DNA from: Balneolaceae bacterium
GTDB lineage: Bacteria; Bacteroidota; Rhodothermia; Balneolales; Balneolaceae
DNA length: 48,007 nt
Assembly: GCA_034521445.1 (NCBI GenBank)
Contig: JAXHMM010000002.1
Coordinates: 1-48,007 of the forward strand
Direction of reading: 5' to 3'
The translations under genes and the position numbers were made by a program. Positions 12,601-44,323 of this stretch are shown in pieces (the stretch's first letter is position 1; every line of letters begins with the position of its first letter). The notes below the pieces were generated by a model that saw only the letters and a program-made list of their open reading frames with translations, ran no database searches and was not told the DNA's origin.

Positions 12601-13946
12601 CACTGGGCGACCTCCATGAGGCCGGACTCTTCCGGCAAACACTGTCCTGGGACCGCGTGGAGGAGGTGGGCTTCCGCTTCACGAAGGACGACAGCCTGCT
12701 TGACCCGGAGCCGCTGGTGCTGCGCCGCAGCGCCGCGCCCGCCTCCACCGAACCGCCGGCCCTGCCAGATGTGGGTGCATTTACGTACGAGGGACAAAAC
12801 CTGGTGCAGTGGCAGCACGCCATCTCCCCGGAGGAGAACAATCGCATCATGGCGCGCATGAACACCTTTGACAATATTTCGGTCTACCACGCGGCCACCT
12901 CTCTGTTGGGCAACGAGGTCTTTGCCATGGACCTGCTGCCGCCCACGCCCTCGACCTACCGCTCGCAGGCCAAGATGAACGCTCTCAAGCCCACGCTATT
13001 TATCTCCGGGCGGCAGCACGCCAACGAGTTCTCCTCCACCAGCCATATGCTAAAGCTGGCCGAAAAGGTGGCCACCGATTCCACCTACCGCCGCTACCTG
13101 GACCGCGTCAACCTGGTGCTGCACCCGGTGACCAACCCAGACGGGGCGGAGCTCTCTATTGCCCTTCATGAGCTCAACCCCTACCACATGAACCACGCAG
13201 CCTACCTGGGTCCCTTGGGCGTGGACATCCCGCGCGACCAGAATCAGCGCGACCCGCGCTACGAGGTGGCGAAAGTTCGCAGGGTAATCCACCAGGCCTG
13301 GCTGCCCGATATCTACATCAATATGCACGGCTACCCGCCCCACGAGTGGGTGCAGTATTTCGCCGGCTACAGCGCCTGGATGACCGGCCGCGAGCGCGGG
13401 CCCAACTCCAACAACTACTGGATCCCGCGGGGCTATTTCCTGACCGGTTTCAACTGGTACGACCACGAGGACCATCCCTTCAACAAGGAGCTCTCCTTTG
13501 CCCTCCTAGACTCCATAAGTACCAGGGTCAACGACGTGCCCGCCATGCGCCGGGTAAACGAGGAGATGCAGCGGCGCTACCGCAAGTACCGCTCGCAGGA
13601 GGACGCCTACGGGGAGTTCTACCGGAACGGCTTGTGGGTGAACGCCCCGCTCGAGGGACGCACCTTCACCGGTTCAGGCTTCTCCGATCCCGACATCACC
13701 TACTTCACCCTCACCTCGGAGGCGCCGGACGAGCCGGCACGGGACGACTGGATGGAGATGAACGCAGCGGCCGGACTGGCCCACAGCACGGCGGTGCTGC
13801 AGTACCTCTACCATGGGCTGAGCGGCATGGAGATCGAAGCGGAGATGGAGTCAGGCCGGGTGCGCAGGGCGCGCTACCGGGTCAAGCCGGTATTGCCGGA
13901 GAAGTTTCACCGTCTGCGGCAGGAGAAGGAGGAGGATGGGAGCTGA
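9630..13946 (+). CDS. very large secreted M14-family zinc carboxypeptidase-like protein
   Basis: 1438 residues from the ATG at 9630; in-frame ATG 9663 is also possible. The hydrophobic signal segment LPVLLALLLLALAVVPVSPA lies about 45 residues in, an unusually long n-region. The N-terminal third contains two copies of a module, each with a Ca-loop-like motif (DSDGDSLADVV and DTNGDEVADDL) followed by a LAARLG(Y)ET-type helix. The middle 600 residues are unassigned. The C-terminus is an M14 peptidase: HxxE in GRQHANE (H1130, E1133), the NPDGAE loop, third zinc His 1233 in NMHGYPPH, and catalytic Glu near 1364 (FTLTSEAP). It is convergent with the next gene (9 bases apart). An exported peptidase is secure; the specificity is unknown. 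Confidence 0.85.
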   Translation: MKARNSNGSTGMRKGDSQEEARRPSAGGLCRSGERVASRRSAASLPVLLALLLLALAVVPVSPAQGQSRHNLLHDLYGQGYLLADSDGDSLADVVRGRLVLSDRPSEEQVITAANLAARLGYETTAMDLDLLCSYGSCPEGEERPALLVGDPQAFGLDVDDLSRAPGQGSVRRVEHPHFPGGAVLVDGYDATGLLAAGNYLSGRYPDLDEPGSGTWTELRERIKELVRGDSASAAGISLESFTLSDGRKGVSRASMRLQTADVSSFRRLADSLSGDASAAWRGALDEASLYRLTLELVHGDSSRTVRLAADASQPEREGGDPQGGGDPDFALQEFYTTGGIYRDTNGDEVADDLQAYISWNGTKNAASLVRLAARVGLETAGMRLPLVYPGGDEQHPENLGFPVIMGPDAYILEQLRGKGGLLENDSQPGDGYIEFLTGRIGDKNGVVLYGSDAAGRGAAADYLARRLPWQWNYGKGEWRLEETQTGVRRFLQGVDGAGQVAAGVEKLRTWMERLEVQPEEVSVHLAAEETPQGLDAFLEGLMAERWPGAKHRAQTRATGFGVGDTVFAEQVSFPWEVDTFWEHFEREVEPELGPASFGRIELRVSEAPQVRDSLAGVIRTRLRAAGVPEGAVEVEVLSAYKQGYSWLADRIIPRLEGREVATVHIDYRHLRDAEEIKWQAAVSPTRWLQEIYPIDGVMTRRLGVADSAITFRPFYGQEGPTYRLAALDAAGDTLLADTFNPRYTVRSYFDHFPKYDSVRVTTGWVEADIDGRKLLNRRIRTDIEAFWDHLQGSTYPKIVDYVMDIQEGRPDEDLAPFFDAFRLDVTLSEPDYQIGFLREQISSTEALHEDLYFETLLLFDLIGNRYGVGGLDYPGRILPFIHPPEHGQPGRASISLTGKQEARPRLELRYRESGGETRELSYTLPNAPVEDPVLRAVKVRESYEGVGGLYFEVPVDTADNPYPGLKERDPEYAIDRTFVSAERVRGIIAALGDLHEAGLFRQTLSWDRVEEVGFRFTKDDSLLDPEPLVLRRSAAPASTEPPALPDVGAFTYEGQNLVQWQHAISPEENNRIMARMNTFDNISVYHAATSLLGNEVFAMDLLPPTPSTYRSQAKMNALKPTLFISGRQHANEFSSTSHMLKLAEKVATDSTYRRYLDRVNLVLHPVTNPDGAELSIALHELNPYHMNHAAYLGPLGVDIPRDQNQRDPRYEVAKVRRVIHQAWLPDIYINMHGYPPHEWVQYFAGYSAWMTGRERGPNSNNYWIPRGYFLTGFNWYDHEDHPFNKELSFALLDSISTRVNDVPAMRRVNEEMQRRYRKYRSQEDAYGEFYRNGLWVNAPLEGRTFTGSGFSDPDITYFTLTSEAPDEPARDDWMEMNAAAGLAHSTAVLQYLYHGLSGMEIEAEMESGRVRRARYRVKPVLPEKFHRLRQEKEEDGS

Positions 13947-20131: not shown

Positions 20132-20524
20132 TGTCGGTATGGGAGGTTGGATTAGATAAAGAAGGTTCGCCACACACGGTGTGCGGCGTTATTTATAATG
20201 ATTCTAAATATGCCAACTATTTTTCGGGCAATCCAGTCCGATTTTAAAAAACTGTGAGTTGTCGGCGAATCGAATGAATGTCAACTGTTTCAGAATCGTT
20301 TTTCAAACGAAACTGGAGAACAGGTATTCATCCTGCGAGCAAGACAGAGGTGCTGACAGGCAATATGGAAGCGGACCTTCTGATCACGCTGGGCGTGCCC
20401 TGTGCTGTGGCGGGGCTGCCGCTGCAGATCACCTTGTGGATCATCATCGTTGCGCTCGCCCCGCTGATCTGGTCCTTCTGAAGGCCCGGCAACCGCTCAC
20501 ATCAATTGATATCGTCTTGTTGCA
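20132..20524. other. intergenic region, no convincing gene
   Basis: This AT-richer stretch separates two minus-strand genes. It must hold the promoter of the HHH-lipoprotein gene, but I could not pick a single good site. A short plus-strand frame (start 20278, or 20365 for a 38-residue version, stop 20481) encodes a hydrophobic C-terminus, LQITLWIIIVALAPLIWSF. It could be a small membrane peptide, but no ribosome-binding site or homolog is visible, and I leave it as doubtful. Confidence 0.4.
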
Positions 20525-20623
20525 GCCCTACCCCTATTTTGGACTCTAATTTTTTTATTCGCACTCCGATGTGGCAGGGAATATGGAGGTAAAAAAAATC
20601 AATGTCCAAAATAGGGGTAGGGC
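20525..20623. repeat. 99-base element with perfect 20-base inverted repeat
   Basis: Bases 20525-20544 (GCCCTACCCCTATTTTGGAC) are perfectly complementary to 20604-20623. Inside, a T run (20550-20557) can pair with an A run (20590-20597), extending the hairpin across a small internal loop to a loop of about 32 bases. It starts 18 bases beyond the stop of the S9 peptidase gene. A U tract after the outer stem is missing, so it is not a standard intrinsic terminator; a mobile hairpin repeat or an mRNA 3'-end stabiliser is possible. Confidence 0.7.
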
Positions 20624-20640
20624 AGGCAACATCCAGAACT

Positions 20641-22887
20641 TCAGCGGCTGTCCGGGCCGTTCATACTGTTCCAGTGGGGCGGCTCCACGTCCAGTATATG
20701 CTCCACAAAGTAGTCGTAGCGCATGCGCTGTCCCAAATCCCCGCCCGAGGTGTGCCCCCCGTTGGGAATGGGGAAGAATTCAAAGTCCTTGCCGGCCTGG
20801 ATGAGGGCGTCGGCCACCTGGTAGGTGGAGGCAGGCGGCACGTTGGTATCCTGGTTGCCTACGATCAGCATAAGATCGCCCTGCAGGCGGTGGGCGTTGT
20901 CCACGTTGGAGGAGGATGCGTAGTGCGGTCCCACGGGCCAGCCCATCCACTGCTCGTTCCAGGAGATCTTGTCCATACGGTTGTCGTGGCAGCCCGAGGC
21001 CGATACGGCCACCTTGTAGAAGTCGGGGTGGAACAGCAGTGCCCCCATGGAGCTCTGTCCCCCGGCCGAGGTGCCGTAGATGCCCACCTTGGAGATGTCA
21101 TACCAGTCGTACTCCACGGCCGCCGCCTTGTGCCAGAGAATGCGGTCGGGAAAACCGGCATCCTTCAGGTTTTTCCACGCCACACTGTGGAACTCCTTGG
21201 AACGGTTGTCGGTGCCCATGCCGTCAATTTGCACCACCACAAAGCCCAGCTCCGCCAGGCTCATCATGTGGGAGTGGGCGTCAAAGCTCTTGGGCACGAA
21301 GGAGTCGTGCGGGCCGGCGTAGATGTATTCGATAACGGGGTAGTTTTGGGAGGGGTCGAAGTCCGTCGGACGCACGATCAACCCCCAGATGTCGGTCTCC
21401 CCGTCGCGTCCCTTGGCTACAAAAGGCTCGGGCGCCTGCCAGCCAGCTTCGTGAAGAGGACCCAGGTCGCCTTTCTCCAGTTCCATCACCACGCCCTGGT
21501 CGGAGGTGCGCCGCAGCACGGCCACGGGCGCCTGGTCCACGCGCGACCAGCGGTCCACATAGTAGCGCATGTCCGACGAATAGTCCACCGTATGGGTCCC
21601 GTCGGCCTCGGTGAGGCGTGTGAGTCCGCTTCCGTCAAAGTTGATCCTGTAGGCGTGCAGGTAGTAGGGGTCCCGACCGTCGTCCATGCCGCTGGCCCGG
21701 AACCAGATCTGCCGCTTCTCGGTATCCACGGAATCCACTTCGCGTACGACCCAGTCGCCTGAAGTGATCTGATTCTTCACCTGTCCGGTGCGTCCGTCGT
21801 AGAGGTAGAGGTGCCGCCAGTTGTCGCGTTCGGAGGCCCATACGATCTCCTCCCCGTTGTCGTCGTAGTGACGCCAGAGGGTGGTATAGTAGGAAAAGAA
21901 GGGATTGCCCTTTTCATGGATGAGAGCCCTGGGCTTGCCGGTTTCGGCATCCACTTCGATCACCTTGTAGTTCTGGTGCCCCCTTTCGTTGTACTCAAAT
22001 CGGAAGGCGCGGCTGTCGGACCACCAATACAGGTCGCCCTGGCTGTAGGCGTTGGGGAAGAGGCTGTTGTCGATGAAAATTTGCTCACGATCGTCCACAT
22101 GGAAAAGCACGGGCGACTCTGTCTCCAGGACGTCTCCCGGCTTGGTATACTGGTCGGTCCAGTGGCGCGGCTGCAGGCGGTCGGGTGGCGAGCTCTGCAG
22201 ATAGTGGATGGTGCGGTTGAAACCCGGCACCACGCGGTAGGCGGCCAGCTTTTCGGAATCGGGCGACCAGGCGAAGGAGTCCACCTCGTAATAGTTTCCC
22301 TCCGATCCGTCACTGCTGAGCATGACCCGTTCGCCGCCCTCCGCCGGCCGAATGGCCACGTTGTAGTTGTGTACGAAGGCCACCCACTCACCGTCGGGGG
22401 AGGTTACCGTCTCCTCGTCTTCATCATCCTCGTCGTCCTGCTGCCACCAGGGCAGGGGCGGCTCCTCGGCCGTGCAGGCATAGTCGTCCAGGGAGCAGGT
22501 GTAGAGGGAATCACCGGTCTCAAATTCAATGGATGCTCCATCCTCCCCGTAATCAATTTCCTCGAAGGGCAGGGTCAGCGGACCGTAGGACTCCCCGAGC
22601 CGGGAGGAGAGCACCTCGGCCAGGCGCTGGTGGTCGAAGGATCGCGCCCGGCTCTGCTGCGCGGCATTCACCGTCAGGAACTCGTGTCCGCCCTCCACCG
22701 ATCGGCGGTACCAGAAGCGGTGCGAGTCGCCTATCCACTCCAGTTCATCAATGATGTTCAGAGCCTTGCCTTCGAAATGCTGCTGGAGGGTATCGGCGCG
22801 CCGGTAGTCGGCAAGGGTGCCCTGGGCCGGCAGGAGGCCGGGCAGCAGGAGGGTAAGGCAGAAACAAAGAACCGTCAGGCGTTTCAT
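20641..22887 (-). CDS. prolyl oligopeptidase-family (DPP-IV-like, S9B) peptidase
   Basis: 748 residues from the ATG at 22887, which begins a signal peptide (LTVLCFCLTLLLPGLLPAQG); a start at 22944 would put the signal too far in. The N-terminal 450 residues are beta-propeller with DPP-IV-type repeats (EWVAFVHNYNVAI, FAWSPDSEKLAAYR, YWWSDSRAFRFEYNERGHQNYKV). The C-terminus is the S9 catalytic domain. The nucleophile is S607 in GTSAGG, the Asp is in VGNQDTNVPP, and the His is in PNGGHTSGGD. It should remove dipeptides, usually X-Pro, from peptides outside the cytoplasm. With the M14 and M16 enzymes it suggests a peptide-feeding lifestyle. The gene stands alone. Confidence 0.93.
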   Translation of the reverse strand: MKRLTVLCFCLTLLLPGLLPAQGTLADYRRADTLQQHFEGKALNIIDELEWIGDSHRFWYRRSVEGGHEFLTVNAAQQSRARSFDHQRLAEVLSSRLGESYGPLTLPFEEIDYGEDGASIEFETGDSLYTCSLDDYACTAEEPPLPWWQQDDEDDEDEETVTSPDGEWVAFVHNYNVAIRPAEGGERVMLSSDGSEGNYYEVDSFAWSPDSEKLAAYRVVPGFNRTIHYLQSSPPDRLQPRHWTDQYTKPGDVLETESPVLFHVDDREQIFIDNSLFPNAYSQGDLYWWSDSRAFRFEYNERGHQNYKVIEVDAETGKPRALIHEKGNPFFSYYTTLWRHYDDNGEEIVWASERDNWRHLYLYDGRTGQVKNQITSGDWVVREVDSVDTEKRQIWFRASGMDDGRDPYYLHAYRINFDGSGLTRLTEADGTHTVDYSSDMRYYVDRWSRVDQAPVAVLRRTSDQGVVMELEKGDLGPLHEAGWQAPEPFVAKGRDGETDIWGLIVRPTDFDPSQNYPVIEYIYAGPHDSFVPKSFDAHSHMMSLAELGFVVVQIDGMGTDNRSKEFHSVAWKNLKDAGFPDRILWHKAAAVEYDWYDISKVGIYGTSAGGQSSMGALLFHPDFYKVAVSASGCHDNRMDKISWNEQWMGWPVGPHYASSSNVDNAHRLQGDLMLIVGNQDTNVPPASTYQVADALIQAGKDFEFFPIPNGGHTSGGDLGQRMRYDYFVEHILDVEPPHWNSMNGPDSR

Positions 22888-23086
22888 GTTGCGGGGGTTG
22901 GGTGCGGGTAAGGTTAATTGTATGGGATCCCATTCTTTTCCCATGTTAAACCATCCCGCAATAAATTATCCTCTTAGCGGTATATAGCTAAAATGCTCCC
23001 GTATTGGCAAATCCGCGAACGTATTTTTACAGGTAGGGGAGAGAGCCCGCCTGTCAATGCTGCCGGCATCCCCCTATATTCCGCCC

Positions 23087-25971: not shown

Positions 25972-26982
25972 ATGACCCAGCCGAAGCCCAAGCAGCAACT
26001 GGTTACCCTCGAAGAGTACATCATTCAAAGCCAGAACCGCTTTCCCCGGGCCACCGGCGAACTCTCACAGCTGCTGAGGGACATCGGCCTGGCCGCCAAA
26101 ATCATCTCCCGCGAGGTCAACAAGGCGGGCATCACCAACATCCTGGGCGAATCGGGCAACACCAATGTACACGGGGAGGACGTCAAGAAGCTGGACGAGT
26201 TCGCCGACCAGCAGCTCATTTCTGCCCTCAGCCGTTCCGAAATCACCTGCATGGTGATCTCCGAGGAGAACGACGGCATTGTGGACCTGGACAATGAGGG
26301 GGGCAAGTATATCGTCTACCTCGACCCGCTGGACGGCTCCTCCAACATCGATGTGAACGTCTCCATCGGGAGCATCTTCTCCATCTATCTGCGCGACAAG
26401 GACGACTATCCGCTGGAGGCGGAGGATGCCCTGCAGCCCGGCACCCAGCAGGTGGCCGCGGGCTATGTGCTCTACGGCTCCAGCACCATGATGGCCTACA
26501 CCACCGGCATGGGCGTGAGCCTGTTTACGCTGGACCCCGGCATAGGGGAGTTCATCCTCTGCGAGGACGACATCAAGATGCCCAAACATGGCACTATCTA
26601 CAGCGTGAACGAAGGCTACTACCGCTCCTGGCCCGAGGGACTCAAGAAGTACGTGAAATACTGCCAGGAAGTGGAGCCGGATGAGGGGCGCCCCTACTCG
26701 GCCCGCTACATCGGCTCCATGGTGGCCGACGTGCACCGCACGCTCATCAAGGGAGGGATTTTTATCTATCCCCACTCCAAGGACTACCCCGACGGGAAAC
26801 TGCGTCTGATGTACGAATGCAATCCTCTGAGCTTTATCATCGAGCAGGCGGGGGGCATGGCCATCGACGGGGAGGGGCGCATTCTGGAGAAGGTACCCGA
26901 GTCGCTGCACCAGCGCACGCCTATCTTTATCGGATCCAGGGCTAATGTGGAGAAGGTCAGGGAATTCCTCAACGGGGGATAA
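25972..26982 (+). CDS. fbp: fructose-1,6-bisphosphatase, class I
   Basis: 336 residues. It removes the 1-phosphate from fructose-1,6-bisphosphate in gluconeogenesis. The class I metal and phosphate motif is complete (YLDPLDGSSNIDVNVSIGSIFSIY). The C-terminus has the substrate-site pattern YIGSMVADVHRTLIKGGIFIYP, then GKLRLMYECNPLSFIIEQAGG. The N-terminal segment ITNILGESGNTNVHGEDVKKLDEFA is also characteristic. It has its own 76-base upstream gap from coaE. The stop codon is followed after only two bases by the arm of a long hairpin repeat, so the mRNA 3' end would carry that structure. Confidence 0.96.
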   Translation: MTQPKPKQQLVTLEEYIIQSQNRFPRATGELSQLLRDIGLAAKIISREVNKAGITNILGESGNTNVHGEDVKKLDEFADQQLISALSRSEITCMVISEENDGIVDLDNEGGKYIVYLDPLDGSSNIDVNVSIGSIFSIYLRDKDDYPLEAEDALQPGTQQVAAGYVLYGSSTMMAYTTGMGVSLFTLDPGIGEFILCEDDIKMPKHGTIYSVNEGYYRSWPEGLKKYVKYCQEVEPDEGRPYSARYIGSMVADVHRTLIKGGIFIYPHSKDYPDGKLRLMYECNPLSFIIEQAGGMAIDGEGRILEKVPESLHQRTPIFIGSRANVEKVREFLNGG

Positions 26983-26984
26983 CG

Positions 26985-27094
26985 GGCAAGGGGTACGGCT
27001 ATCTCGGCTGGAAATGGTTGATTACCACTACTAGCCTAATTCATCCAATCTCATTTTCAACCATTTAGGCCTGCGATAGCCGTACCCCCTTGCC
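26985..27094 (+). repeat. structured hairpin repeat, copy A
   Basis: A 110-base interrupted hairpin. The outer stem is 26985-27003 with 27075-27094 (19 pairs, one extra C on the right). The inner stem is 27012-27021 (AAATGGTTGA) with 27057-27066 (TCAACCATTT). Between them are two 8-base loop strands, TCGGCTGG and AGGCCTGC. The loop strands, not the stems, recur in copy B on the opposite strand. It directly follows fbp. There is no U tract after the stem, so simple intrinsic termination is unlikely. Confidence 0.75.
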
Positions 27095-27146
27095 GCGAAG
27101 TCCGCGAGCATCCGCCGGATCAGTGTAGGGGTAAGGAGGTGTGAGG

Positions 27147-27170
27147 CGCAGGCCTGATTCTTTTCAGAGA
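27147..27170 (-). repeat. half-copy of the structured hairpin repeat
   Basis: On the minus strand GAAAAGAATC is followed by AGGCCTGCG (27155-27147), matching the right inner-stem and right loop strand of copies A and B. Just before it (27177-27168) is AGCTATCTCT, which resembles the left boundary of copy A (GGCTATCTC). The left inner stem and loop strand are missing, so this looks like an internally deleted relic. Confidence 0.5.
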
Positions 27171-27179
27171 TAGCTGGTA

Positions 27180-27290
27180 GAGGGATGGATGGCCGGGGAC
27201 GGAGGCCTAATTCTTTTCCGATGGGATACGGCATAGGATAGGGTCAAACCGGAAAAGAATTCCAGCCGAGTACCCGGCCGTCCATCCCTC
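27180..27290 (-). repeat. structured hairpin repeat, copy B (inverted)
   Basis: An interrupted hairpin of 111 bases. The outer stem is 27180-27197 with 27273-27290 (18 pairs including one G-U). The inner stem is 27209-27220 (AATTCTTTTCCG) with 27250-27261 (12 pairs), and the internal loop is symmetric (11 bases per side). Read on the minus strand, the loop strands are CTCGGCTGG (27270-27262) and AGGCCTCCG (27208-27200), the same as in copy A with one change. The outer arm ends 2 bases from the DUF192 stop. Confidence 0.75.
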
Positions 27291-27291
27291 C

Positions 27292-27831
27292 TCAGCCCTC
27301 CTCGAACACCACCCGCATCCCTTCCCGGATATCGTGCGACACGCAAAAGCCCCCGTTCACCTCCACCACATAGCGCGCGGGATCCCCGCTGGGAAAGCTA
27401 TCCTGGGAATAGGGGGTGGTGCTGCGGTGGATGCGTACGATTTCCCCGCTCTCGTTGACAAAGATGATATCGAGGGACAGGGGCGTGTTGGCCATCCAGA
27501 AGCTCAAGGGCTCCTGCTGCGGGAAGACGAAGTACATGCCGCGGTCCTCCGGCAGATCGGATACGTTCATCAGGCCTTCGTTGCGCTCCTGCTCCTCGTC
27601 GGCCACGGCCACGCGCACCGAGGCCAGGGTGTCAGCCTCCCCGGCGGGGCCGTCCAGGAAGTGGACCTCCCCGGTGTATTCCAGGGAGGCGCTGCGGTCA
27701 GAACCGGCGGACTGCTCCGTGTCAGTACTCCTCGTACTGCTCGAAGTCGATTTCGTCCGGCGATCCGAACATGCGCTGATTCCAATTGCCAGGACCGCCG
27801 TTATCAGCGCTGATTTCCAAAGTGCGTTCAT
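27292..27831 (-). CDS. DUF192-family lipoprotein
   Basis: 179 residues. The signal peptide ends in lipobox AIGISAC (Cys 21), followed by a Ser/Thr-rich linker to about residue 50. The remainder is a DUF192 domain: RVAVADEEQERNEGLMNVSDLPEDRGMYFVF, then SFWMANTPLSLDIIFVNESGEIVRIH, then RYVVEVNGGFCVSHDIREGMRV. The pattern GLM...GMxFxF...FWMxNTxxxLDIxFxxxxGxI is diagnostic. The molecular function of DUF192 is not established. The signal-peptide end overlaps the C-terminal coding region of the upstream BNR gene by 110 bases in another frame. Confidence 0.88.
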   Translation of the reverse strand: MNALWKSALITAVLAIGISACSDRRTKSTSSSTRSTDTEQSAGSDRSASLEYTGEVHFLDGPAGEADTLASVRVAVADEEQERNEGLMNVSDLPEDRGMYFVFPQQEPLSFWMANTPLSLDIIFVNESGEIVRIHRSTTPYSQDSFPSGDPARYVVEVNGGFCVSHDIREGMRVVFEEG

Positions 27832-36677: not shown

Positions 36678-36717
36678 CGACTTCTAGACTTTCCGACTTT
36701 AAGACTTATCAGACTTA
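36678..36717 (+). repeat. short GACTT tandem repeat upstream of ribF
   Basis: Five GACTT units with about 8-base spacing fill the space between truB and ribF. The 12-mer GACTTTCCGACT (36687-36698) is the exact reverse complement of the 12-mer repeated in infB, which suggests a shared dispersed micro-repeat. Confidence 0.65.
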
Positions 36718-36720
36718 AAA

Positions 36721-43171: not shown

Positions 43172-43237
43172 ATGATAGAGCAAGTGCGCATAGCCTTAAA
43201 CGAACGACGCCGCCGCCCGAAAGGGCGAAATACTTGA
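43172..43237 (+). CDS. argL: arginine leader peptide of the arg operon attenuator
   Basis: A 22-codon frame (21 residues plus TGA) between the arg promoter and the terminator. Six codons are arginine: 6, 12, 13, 14, 15 and 19. Codons 12-15 (43205-43216) form a run of four, CGA CGC CGC CGC, within the peptide segment ERRRRPKGR. Its position, its stop codon inside the second arm of the hairpin set, and the arginine biosynthesis genes behind it are those of a ribosome-stalling leader. No clear Shine-Dalgarno site is present, which is normal for this lineage. The peptide is too short for homology support, and the symbol is used descriptively. Confidence 0.82.
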   Translation: MIEQVRIALNERRRRPKGRNT

Positions 43238-43297
43238 TCTCTATCCATCATTAAGTATTCGCCCGCTCACTCTCACGATTGAGCGGGCTTTTTTTTT
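43214..43297 (+). promoter_or_regulatory. arginine transcription attenuator (1:2, 2:3 and 3:4 hairpins)
   Basis: Three exclusive structures can be drawn. Hairpin 1:2 is CGCCC-GAAA-GGGCG (43214-43227). Antiterminator 2:3 pairs 43223-43235 with 43253-43264, 12 pairs with one bulged A at 43230. Terminator 3:4 is 43261-43269 with 43280-43288. Stalling at Arg codons 12-15 would cover arm 1, favouring 2:3 and read-through into argFGH. Completing the peptide places the ribosome on arm 2 (stop at 43235-43237) and lets 3:4 form. Confidence 0.85.
43261..43297 (+). terminator. intrinsic terminator of the arg attenuator
   Basis: GCCCGCTCA (43261-43269) pairs perfectly with TGAGCGGGC (43280-43288) around a 10-base loop, followed by nine T residues (43289-43297). 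It ends 24 bases before the argF start codon, so it acts in the leader and not at a gene end. Confidence 0.93.
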
Positions 43298-43321
43298 GTA
43301 ACTCACAAAACGTTTAAGGCT

Positions 43322-44323
43322 ATGAACCATTTCCTTTCCATCGGCGGCAACGACCCGTCCTACATTCAGCATCTGCTGCGGCAAAGCCGGTACCTTCACA
43401 CCAATCCCTCCATCAAAACCCTGGAGGGCAAGAATATCCTCTTCTGCTTCGAGAAGCCCTCCTTGAGAACCAAGGTGGGAACCGAGGTGGCCATCAACGC
43501 CCTTGGCGGCGATGTGATCCACATCTCTCCGGAGGCCTTTCTGGGCGGCAAGGTGGTGCATCCCTCCGAGTTTGAATCCGACGTGCCCGAAGAGCGCGAG
43601 GCGCTCAAGGACACCGTGAAGAACGTATCGGAGTGGTGCGACGCCATCTTTGCCCGGGTCTACCGCCACCAGACACTCACCACGCTGGCCTCCTTTTCAG
43701 GTATCCCCATCATCAACGCCCTCTGCGACAAGCACCATCCCATGCAGGCGCTGGCCGATCTTTACACTTTGCAGGAGAAGTTCGGAGAGGGACACCAGCT
43801 CACCGTGTCATTCGTGGGCGATGCCAACAATGTGGCCTTTTCGCTCATCGAGATCCTCCTGATGTCCGGCCATGAGATCCGCTTTGCAGGTCCCCGCGAG
43901 TACTACTGGGACAAGCAGCAGCTGCACCATTTTATCCAGCTGGCCAAGCGGCACCGGGGTACCTTCACCCACTCCACCGATCCTTTGAAGGCCGTCAGCG
44001 GCGCCGACGCCGTCTACACCGACGCCTTCGTCTCCATGGGCGAGGAGAAGATCTACGACGAGAAGCTGGCCGCCTTCCGGAAATACCAGGTAAACGGCGA
44101 GCTCTTCGAAAAGGCGCCCTCCCATGCGGGCTTCATGCACTGTCTGCCTGCCCACCGCGGGGTGGAGGTAACCGACGAGGTGCTCGACCACGAAAACTCC
44201 TGGATCTACGACCAGGCGTGCAACCGGATGGTGGTCTCCAAGGGGGTCTTCAGCACCCTGCTGACCGACAGCCAGGCTGCCTCCCCGGTAGCGTCGCGCC
44301 GTCAGCTGGCCGCCGAGGCCTGA
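43322..44323 (+). CDS. argF: ornithine carbamoyltransferase
   Basis: 333 residues. It joins ornithine and carbamoyl phosphate to give citrulline. The carbamoyl-phosphate motif is FEKPSLRTK (residues 43-51) in place of the usual STRTR. HHPMQALADLYTL is the second phosphate-site block, normally HPxQ. The ornithine loop DAVYTDAFVSMGEE and the HCLPAHRGVEVTDEVLDH motif favour the ornithine enzyme over the N-acetyl- or N-succinylornithine variants found in some Bacteroidota, whose HCLP loop differs. It is first in the attenuator-controlled argF-argG-argH operon, with argG starting 62 bases after its stop. Confidence 0.9.
   Translation: MNHFLSIGGNDPSYIQHLLRQSRYLHTNPSIKTLEGKNILFCFEKPSLRTKVGTEVAINALGGDVIHISPEAFLGGKVVHPSEFESDVPEEREALKDTVKNVSEWCDAIFARVYRHQTLTTLASFSGIPIINALCDKHHPMQALADLYTLQEKFGEGHQLTVSFVGDANNVAFSLIEILLMSGHEIRFAGPREYYWDKQQLHHFIQLAKRHRGTFTHSTDPLKAVSGADAVYTDAFVSMGEEKIYDEKLAAFRKYQVNGELFEKAPSHAGFMHCLPAHRGVEVTDEVLDHENSWIYDQACNRMVVSKGVFSTLLTDSQAASPVASRRQLAAEA

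Follow-up and report, generated by a model that had tools for sequence, protein, structure and literature searches.

The gap between two convergent genes of a Balneolaceae bacterium contains two interrupted hairpins that share an internal element but have unrelated stems. The question raised by this locus is whether the hairpins belong to a structured repeat family and, if so, what such a family may do at the ends of genes. The window (i.e., the whole stretch of DNA analysed) is a complete contig of 48,007 bases (C2) in an assembly of 18 contigs and 3.2 Mb. The fructose-1,6-bisphosphatase gene (fbp) of the locus was closest to Balneolaceae (Fodinibius/Aliifodinibius), with 81% protein identity. 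A foreign or contaminating origin of the contig was rejected; the tetranucleotide composition of the window fitted the rest of the genome.

Hairpins A and B between fbp and the DUF192 gene

The 5′ end of hairpin A (26983–27097, plus strand) was located 0–2 nt past the TAA codon (26980–26982) of fbp (25972–26982, plus strand; PF00316 and PF18913). Hairpin B (27180–27290, minus strand) started 1–2 nt past the TGA codon of a gene for a DUF192 lipoprotein-like protein (27292–27831, minus strand; PF02643). The two genes are convergent, so that A is in sense orientation to fbp and B to the DUF192 gene. RNA folding gave an MFE of −55.2 for A (z −7.2) and −62 for B (z −7.0), and none of 200 shuffles was as stable in either case. 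The two interrupted hairpins, which a preliminary description had proposed at this locus, were thus confirmed as real structures in the same positions.

The outer stem of A (26985–27002 with 27076–27094) comprised 18 bp and one bulged C, and its inner stem paired 27012–27021 with 27057–27066. The outer stem of B (27180–27199 with 27271–27290) contained two mismatches and enclosed an inner stem formed by 27209–27220 and 27250–27261. The stems had been described as fully complementary; given the bulge in A and the mismatches in B, they are nearly so. The internal element was positioned between the outer and inner stems. Its 5′ strand was CTCGGCTGG in both hairpins (27003–27011 in A and 27262–27270 in B), and its 3′ strand was AGGCCTGCG in A (27067–27075) and AGGCCTCCG in B (27200–27208). 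The two hairpins therefore had CTCGGCTGG / AGGCCT(G/C)CG in common around unrelated stems. The pattern CTCGGCTGGN{40,70}AGGCCTSCG matched the 3.2 Mb genome twice, only in A and B, and the reversed-pattern controls gave 0 matches. The element had been regarded as a conserved, symmetric internal loop. The core does hold its structural place, but the loop is not truly symmetric, because a helix of 3–4 bp (GGY/RCC) stands beside an asymmetric bubble. The literal 9-mers of the loop strands were limited to A and B, and the core of the family is shorter, consisting of GGYT/AGRCC or, in one subgroup, of TTGTGG/CCTAAG.

A half-copy had also been reported between A and B (27147–27170), and it proved to be real. 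It was found at 27147–27168 on the minus strand, 53 nt downstream of B, and was 86% identical to the 3′ side of B over 22 nt (z 5.9). M5, one of the further hairpins described below, was followed 59 nt downstream by a half-copy of its own 3′ side, which was stronger than that of B (z 11.5). The half-copies next to B and M5 point to the tandem duplication of half a hairpin, which explains the half-copy reported at this locus.

Nine hairpins and their placement in the genome

Genome searches with exact patterns and with a covariance model derived from A and B, both of which depend on sequence, recovered A and B alone. A structure scan blind to sequence, which looked for long hairpins whose apical loop is open, was carried out on 2.49 Mb (78%) of the genome; the top shuffle score, obtained from the first 0.54 Mb, was 23.3. 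Two groups were above the shuffle level, namely hairpins made of AAAGTC-type heptamers and nine hairpins of ~104–121 nt, the latter with scores of 27.4–35.8. The few matches at 23.3–24.1 were not taken as members, and other intergenic hairpins outside the heptamer group reached at most 21.5. Besides A and B, the nine included seven hairpins of like shape and size. M3 was in the window (20518–20631, minus strand), and six were on other contigs, i.e., M4 (L090:14939–15055), M5 (L181:939–1042), M6 (L175:6223–6332), M7 (L175:6080–6194), N1 (L218:2476–2596) and N2 (L218:2603–2713). The earlier proposal of a repeat family, according to which further copies should exist in the genome, survives with these seven.

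The anatomy common to the nine hairpins consisted of an outer stem of ~16–24 bp, a small internal element, an inner stem of 6–12 bp and an apical loop of ~24–44 nt. M3 had a perfect outer stem of 20 bp, an inner stem and a C-rich apical loop, and its foot was 9–10 nt from the TGA codon of an S9 peptidase gene (20641–22944, minus strand). The folding z of M3 was −9.95, the covariance model of A and B gave an E of 0.015, and the literal GGYT/AGRCC core was absent. M3, N1 and N2 are probable members on the basis of anatomy, place and loop composition. The family is of low copy number, with nine hairpins found in 78% of the genome. Two further candidates that overlapped predicted ORFs and had no core were dropped, namely L153:12179–12262, which was also too short, and L169:5086–5201. 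The latter and L210:2017–2137 are near-identical hairpins of ~116–121 nt with arms AAGATCTCCTTGTGTTAGGT..AACCTACRCAAGGAGATTCTT.

The AAAGTC-heptamer repeats constitute another structured repeat family in the genome, more abundant than that of A and B. Approximately 55 intergenic clusters of this type were observed, many of which were near-perfect hairpins, often a few nt past stops, with the recurring apex GTCCACCGAC. The sites include L103:15696–15790, L105:14854–14967, L130:15338–15454 and L158:9994–10101 as well as 36679–36720 in the window.

The suspected clustering at gene 3′ ends was borne out, as all nine hairpins were 0–10 nt from a stop codon, and the TAG stop at M5 overlapped the foot of the hairpin. 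At least five of the six loci were between convergent genes, and three were inverted pairs (A/B, M7/M6 and N1/N2). Of the 930 gaps that were 80 nt or longer according to a rough ORF call, 177 were convergent. The M5 locus is most likely convergent, its left gene probably being a DUF4271-like ORF on the plus strand (weak match), and the left side of M3 held a 67-aa ORF only. The hairpins were sense to the nearest gene with the exception of M4, a single hairpin equidistant from two convergent genes (4–5 nt from both stops), for which the gene orientation was ambiguous. The host genes encoded FBPase, the DUF192 protein, an S9 peptidase, an OmpR-type regulator, an MMPL protein, an M29 peptidase, ClpB, an inositol phosphatase and a PIG-L protein; fbp, clpB, the MMPL gene and the others are functionally unrelated.

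No family copy was found in 58 other genomes. The covariance-model search begins with a sequence-like first look, and its negative results in relatives are therefore weak. The fbp neighbourhoods of Balneolaceae type (0.58 Mb) yielded no comparable hairpin, which is weak evidence since ~2 would be expected at the density of this genome. The related fbp loci examined had no hairpin 3′ of fbp. Two Bacteroidales MAG contigs (L064:457–575 and L065:3396–3516) contained ~120-nt hairpins whose arms are unrelated and whose centre, TTTACTNNTGTAAATGAGTATTTTAA, is shared; these are possibly an analogous variable-stem family. Long hairpins with GTCATSCCGAGCGCAGCSRAGG-type arms were observed in Hymenobacter (L078:360–479 and 2058–2160).

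Shared core, variable stems and apical loops

The covariance model was built from A and B only and run with filters off on 60 kb. Four other hairpins were recovered at E values from 8e-10 to 1.6e-5, i.e., M5 (54.8 bits, E 7.9e-10), M6 (40.0 bits, E 1.4e-6), M4 (38.9 bits, E 2.4e-6) and M7 (35.2 bits, E 1.6e-5), and the sense strand outscored the antisense strand in every case. N1 and N2 reached only an E of about 0.07, and the antisense strand of N2 was preferred. A scan for GG[CT]T..AG[GA]CC with both stems returned exactly A, B, M4, M5, M6 and M7 at scores of 30–35; the next place scored 23.0, and the control motifs scored at most 25.7. GGYT/AGRCC was kept between the outer and inner stems in these six of the nine hairpins, which were distributed over four contigs with the core in one orientation throughout, and a short internal motif was common to six or seven of the nine. 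M7 carried GGTT/AGACC, compared with GGCT/AGGCC elsewhere, which is a compensated change from C-G to T-A with the T opposite AG retained. TTGTGG/CCTAAG was common to M4, M7 and N1, and three adjoining pairs in N1 all differed (CAT/ATG) with pairing retained. A TTGTGG/CCTAAG match in G048 was rejected as chance-like, being in coding sequence and without stems. N2 and M3 had no recognisable core.

Three predictions were recorded before the last 387 kb were scanned: a place at a stop codon, an apical loop with C>G and the literal motif. In this held-out sequence, N1 and N2 agreed with the predictions for the stop codon and the loop and failed that for the literal motif. Hence, the core was taken to be looser than the six members had implied. 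The earlier claim of loop conservation holds for the place of the core, but the conservation itself is looser than claimed, with N1 and N2 lacking the literal motif and M3 matching poorly.

The pairing of the outer stems was counted on hand-registered arms at 16 positions in each of the nine hairpins; MAFFT had put the unrelated stems out of register. Watson–Crick pairs accounted for 136 of the 144 positions, with 2 G·T pairs and 6 mismatches, and this pairing is partly a selection effect because the members were picked by their long stems. The 5′ arms were on average 25.7% identical (shuffled arms, 26.2%), and a mean of 3.6 of the four Watson–Crick pair types was observed per outer-stem column. 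Blastn between members revealed no stem or loop similarity across copies. The stems thus differ and yet stay paired over all nine hairpins, as had been noticed for A and B. Since the search itself selected for pairing, the observations independent of it are the common core, the place, the orientation and the loop composition. The results suggest that a folded shape is being maintained at the ends of genes.

In the apical loops of seven members, C outnumbered G by 91 to 26 on the sense strand, compared with 5742 C and 5725 G in comparable genomic 3′ windows. The apical loops of N1 and N2 also had more C than G, as judged by reading the sequence. The antisense strand folded equally or more stably in five of the seven members. 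Hence, the stability of the sense RNA is not what is optimised, and the strand bias sits in the loop and not in the stability of the stems. Taken as a whole, the earlier interpretation of A and B was partly supported.

Possible roles of the hairpins and competing explanations

REPs occur, often as dimers, in the gaps between ORFs that are convergent or codirectional; the distance to the 3′ ends of the flanking ORFs is mostly <20 bp, and the feet of REPs may overlap or supply a stop codon (PMC3733652). They are 20–40 bp in length, have a sequence common to the whole family and a tag (GTAG or CGTC), and are characterised by a high copy number and RAYT transposases (PMC3733652). Like REPs and BIMEs, the present hairpins are extragenic palindromes beside stops, mostly between convergent ORFs and either single or in inverted dimers, and the foot of M5 overlaps TAG. 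Unlike REPs, they are ~104–121 nt long and low in copy number, with stems unrelated between copies, no tag seen and no Y1 transposase. Inspection of the feet and flanks in seven members for a GTAG/CGTC tag revealed no common tetranucleotide. The search for a Y1 (IS200/IS605-type) transposase (PF01797) gave no match at E ≤0.001 in the 97.8% complete genome, and the control search was positive in 5 of 14 genomes. The RAYT-type agent that had been envisaged was therefore not supported. The family shares the placement of REPs, but on three tests (sequence similarity of the copies, presence of a GTAG/CGTC tag and presence of a Y1 transposase) it does not qualify as a REP.

The survey of stem-loop families in bacterial genomes by Cozzuto et al. 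(2008; PMC2267715) clusters by sequence. The present hairpins resemble those families as intergenic repeats with a predicted common secondary structure and differ from them in having no stem similarity. Such a family would probably have been missed by the survey, since it was sequence-clustered. The Rfam scan of the window, L175, L181 and L090 returned only tRNAs at gathering scores, and the sub-threshold matches on the hairpins were unrelated miRNA models. Reverse transcriptase (PF00078), which would indicate a retron or an RT-made element, was absent from the genome.

The reading preferred here, with a probability of about 0.4, is that the hairpins act in RNA as 3′-UTR signals for processing or insulation where convergent genes meet. 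The fold, the family, the location and the loop bias were observed; that the hairpins are transcribed, recognised by a protein and functional is what we infer in addition. The hairpin would be in the 3′ UTR of the transcript, and the RNA would fold as RNA polymerase leaves the gene. A double-strand-specific nuclease or RNA-binding protein might then recognise or cut the bubble within the near two-turn duplex, and RNase III-like processing signals may serve as the model. RNase III processing signals, e.g., those of phage T7, are long irregular intergenic hairpins with two stems around an asymmetric internal loop. By analogy, the present hairpins may be compared with the T7 signals in their long irregular shape, variable stems, asymmetric internal loop and location between genes, whereas the conserved core motif and the long C-rich apical loop set them apart. 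The 3′ end of the mRNA would thereby be fixed and protected, and convergent transcripts would be kept from colliding. Selection would act on the duplex length, the bubble and the unpaired pyrimidine-rich loop, and not on the sequence of the stems. Weighing against this reading are the equal or greater stability of the antisense strand in five of seven members, the poor fit of N1, N2 and M3 to the core, the small number of genes with a hairpin and the related fbp loci that have none. A broader claim, that the hairpins represent a class of cis-acting bacterial 3′-UTR RNAs (or folded-DNA sites) defined by shape and not by sequence, is rather doubtful. Under this claim, a factor at convergent gene ends would read any ~20-bp duplex that has a C-rich loop and a small bubble of the GGYU/AGRCC type.

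The main rival, possible but on the whole unlikely, holds that the hairpins are REP/BIME-like selfish palindromes. The bubble of the folded single-stranded DNA would be read by a putative transposase, the element would insert at the ends of transcripts, and the stem variation would accrue with age. The REP-like placement (PMC3733652), the three inverted pairs and the half-copies beside B and M5 are consistent with this explanation, as are the relatives' fbp loci without a hairpin and the absence of the literal patterns from 58–97 other genomes, one chance match excepted. However, no stem or loop sequence is common to any two copies, signs of recent copying are thus absent, and neutral divergence to random identity should erode pairing, whereas the outer stems are 94% Watson–Crick. 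The lack of a Y1/RAYT transposase in the genome and of GTAG/CGTC tags at the feet, as judged by eye, also argues against it. The half-copies, which are tandem, one-armed and spaced with a period of 53–59 nt, would also fit the improbable explanation that the long palindromes were born independently. Template-switch repair or fold-back duplication would make and maintain near-perfect 3′-end hairpins, and the core of some copies would be a non-functional product of local duplication or conversion. The presence of a second, unrelated class of long hairpins (the AAAGTC heptamer arrays) in similar places of the genome and the missing literal core of N1, N2 and M3 favour such an origin. Nevertheless, homogenisation of the arms should erase the bubble, which is kept at a near-constant structural depth. 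The like-oriented core of six copies on four contigs, with control motifs below that score, and the strand specificity of the C>G loop bias are likewise at odds with it.

Ordinary intrinsic (Rho-independent) terminators would account for strong hairpins directly past stop codons and mostly between convergent genes. The intrinsic terminators with compensatory stem evolution presented in PMC5381666 are also gene-end hairpins with covarying stems; the present hairpins differ from them in having no U-tract, far longer stems and an internal bubble with a shared motif. No U-tract was found directly 3′ of any hairpin. Within the following 40 nt, the longest run of T was 1–3 in six of seven members, and the run of 6 at M4 was ~30 nt on. 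The stems exceed the usual length more than twofold, a shared internal motif would be unexpected, and a terminator scan showed no excess over shuffles and did not pick the hairpins as a whole. Moreover, only ~9 of some 2,000 genes carry a family hairpin, and the hairpins are therefore not a general termination device. The chance that they are ordinary terminators appears slim. Integron attC-like sites, i.e., folded single-stranded DNA recombination sites past the stop codons of genes, are a very improbable explanation in spite of the full integron integrase in the genome (TIGR02249, 433.8 bits vs. a cut-off of 265). The stems of attC are variable, their conservation is structural rather than by sequence, and the conserved fold, the asymmetry and the position 3′ of genes are similar to those of the present hairpins (PMC8946536). 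A strict scan for RYYYAAC..GTTRRRY with a paired interior returned one place (both strands) and none of the nine hairpins, and relaxed box scans likewise missed all nine. Unlike attC, the hairpins have no R′/R″ boxes (RYYYAAC and GTTRRRY) at the foot, their conserved part is inside the stem, and they accompany core housekeeping genes, partly in convergent pairs, with no cassette array.

If the family is real and functional, it would be a bacterial family of dispersed elements kept by structure alone, the stem sequences of the copies being fully randomised. Repeat finders that rely on sequence, and seeding in the style of Rfam, would overlook such families, of which more could exist and which may be common. 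Because the hairpins have no intrinsic-terminator U-tract, the family would also raise the question of how Balneolaceae separate or process convergent transcripts.

Several other elements of the genome were noted. The integron integrase gene (L214:14791–15753; G000 C6:714806–715750) has a PIN-family toxin gene nearby, and two attC-like imperfect palindromes are near the integrase (L214:12678–12783 and 13529–13635). Repeated intergenic elements of ~95–119 nt are bounded by two CRP/FNR-like palindromes (TTTGTGATTTTTTCACAAA) and were found at L127:14347–14441, L127:11140–11240, L191:10984–11088, L128:8550–8660, L125:12587–12699 and L167:18544–18662. In the window, the leader of an ornithine carbamoyltransferase-like gene (43189–43324), which had no Rfam match, contains a 14-nt inverted repeat around a GC-rich hairpin. 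Nine T follow this hairpin, which gives it a terminator-like appearance; the distal arm of the repeat ends at the ATG, and the leader looks like an attenuator.
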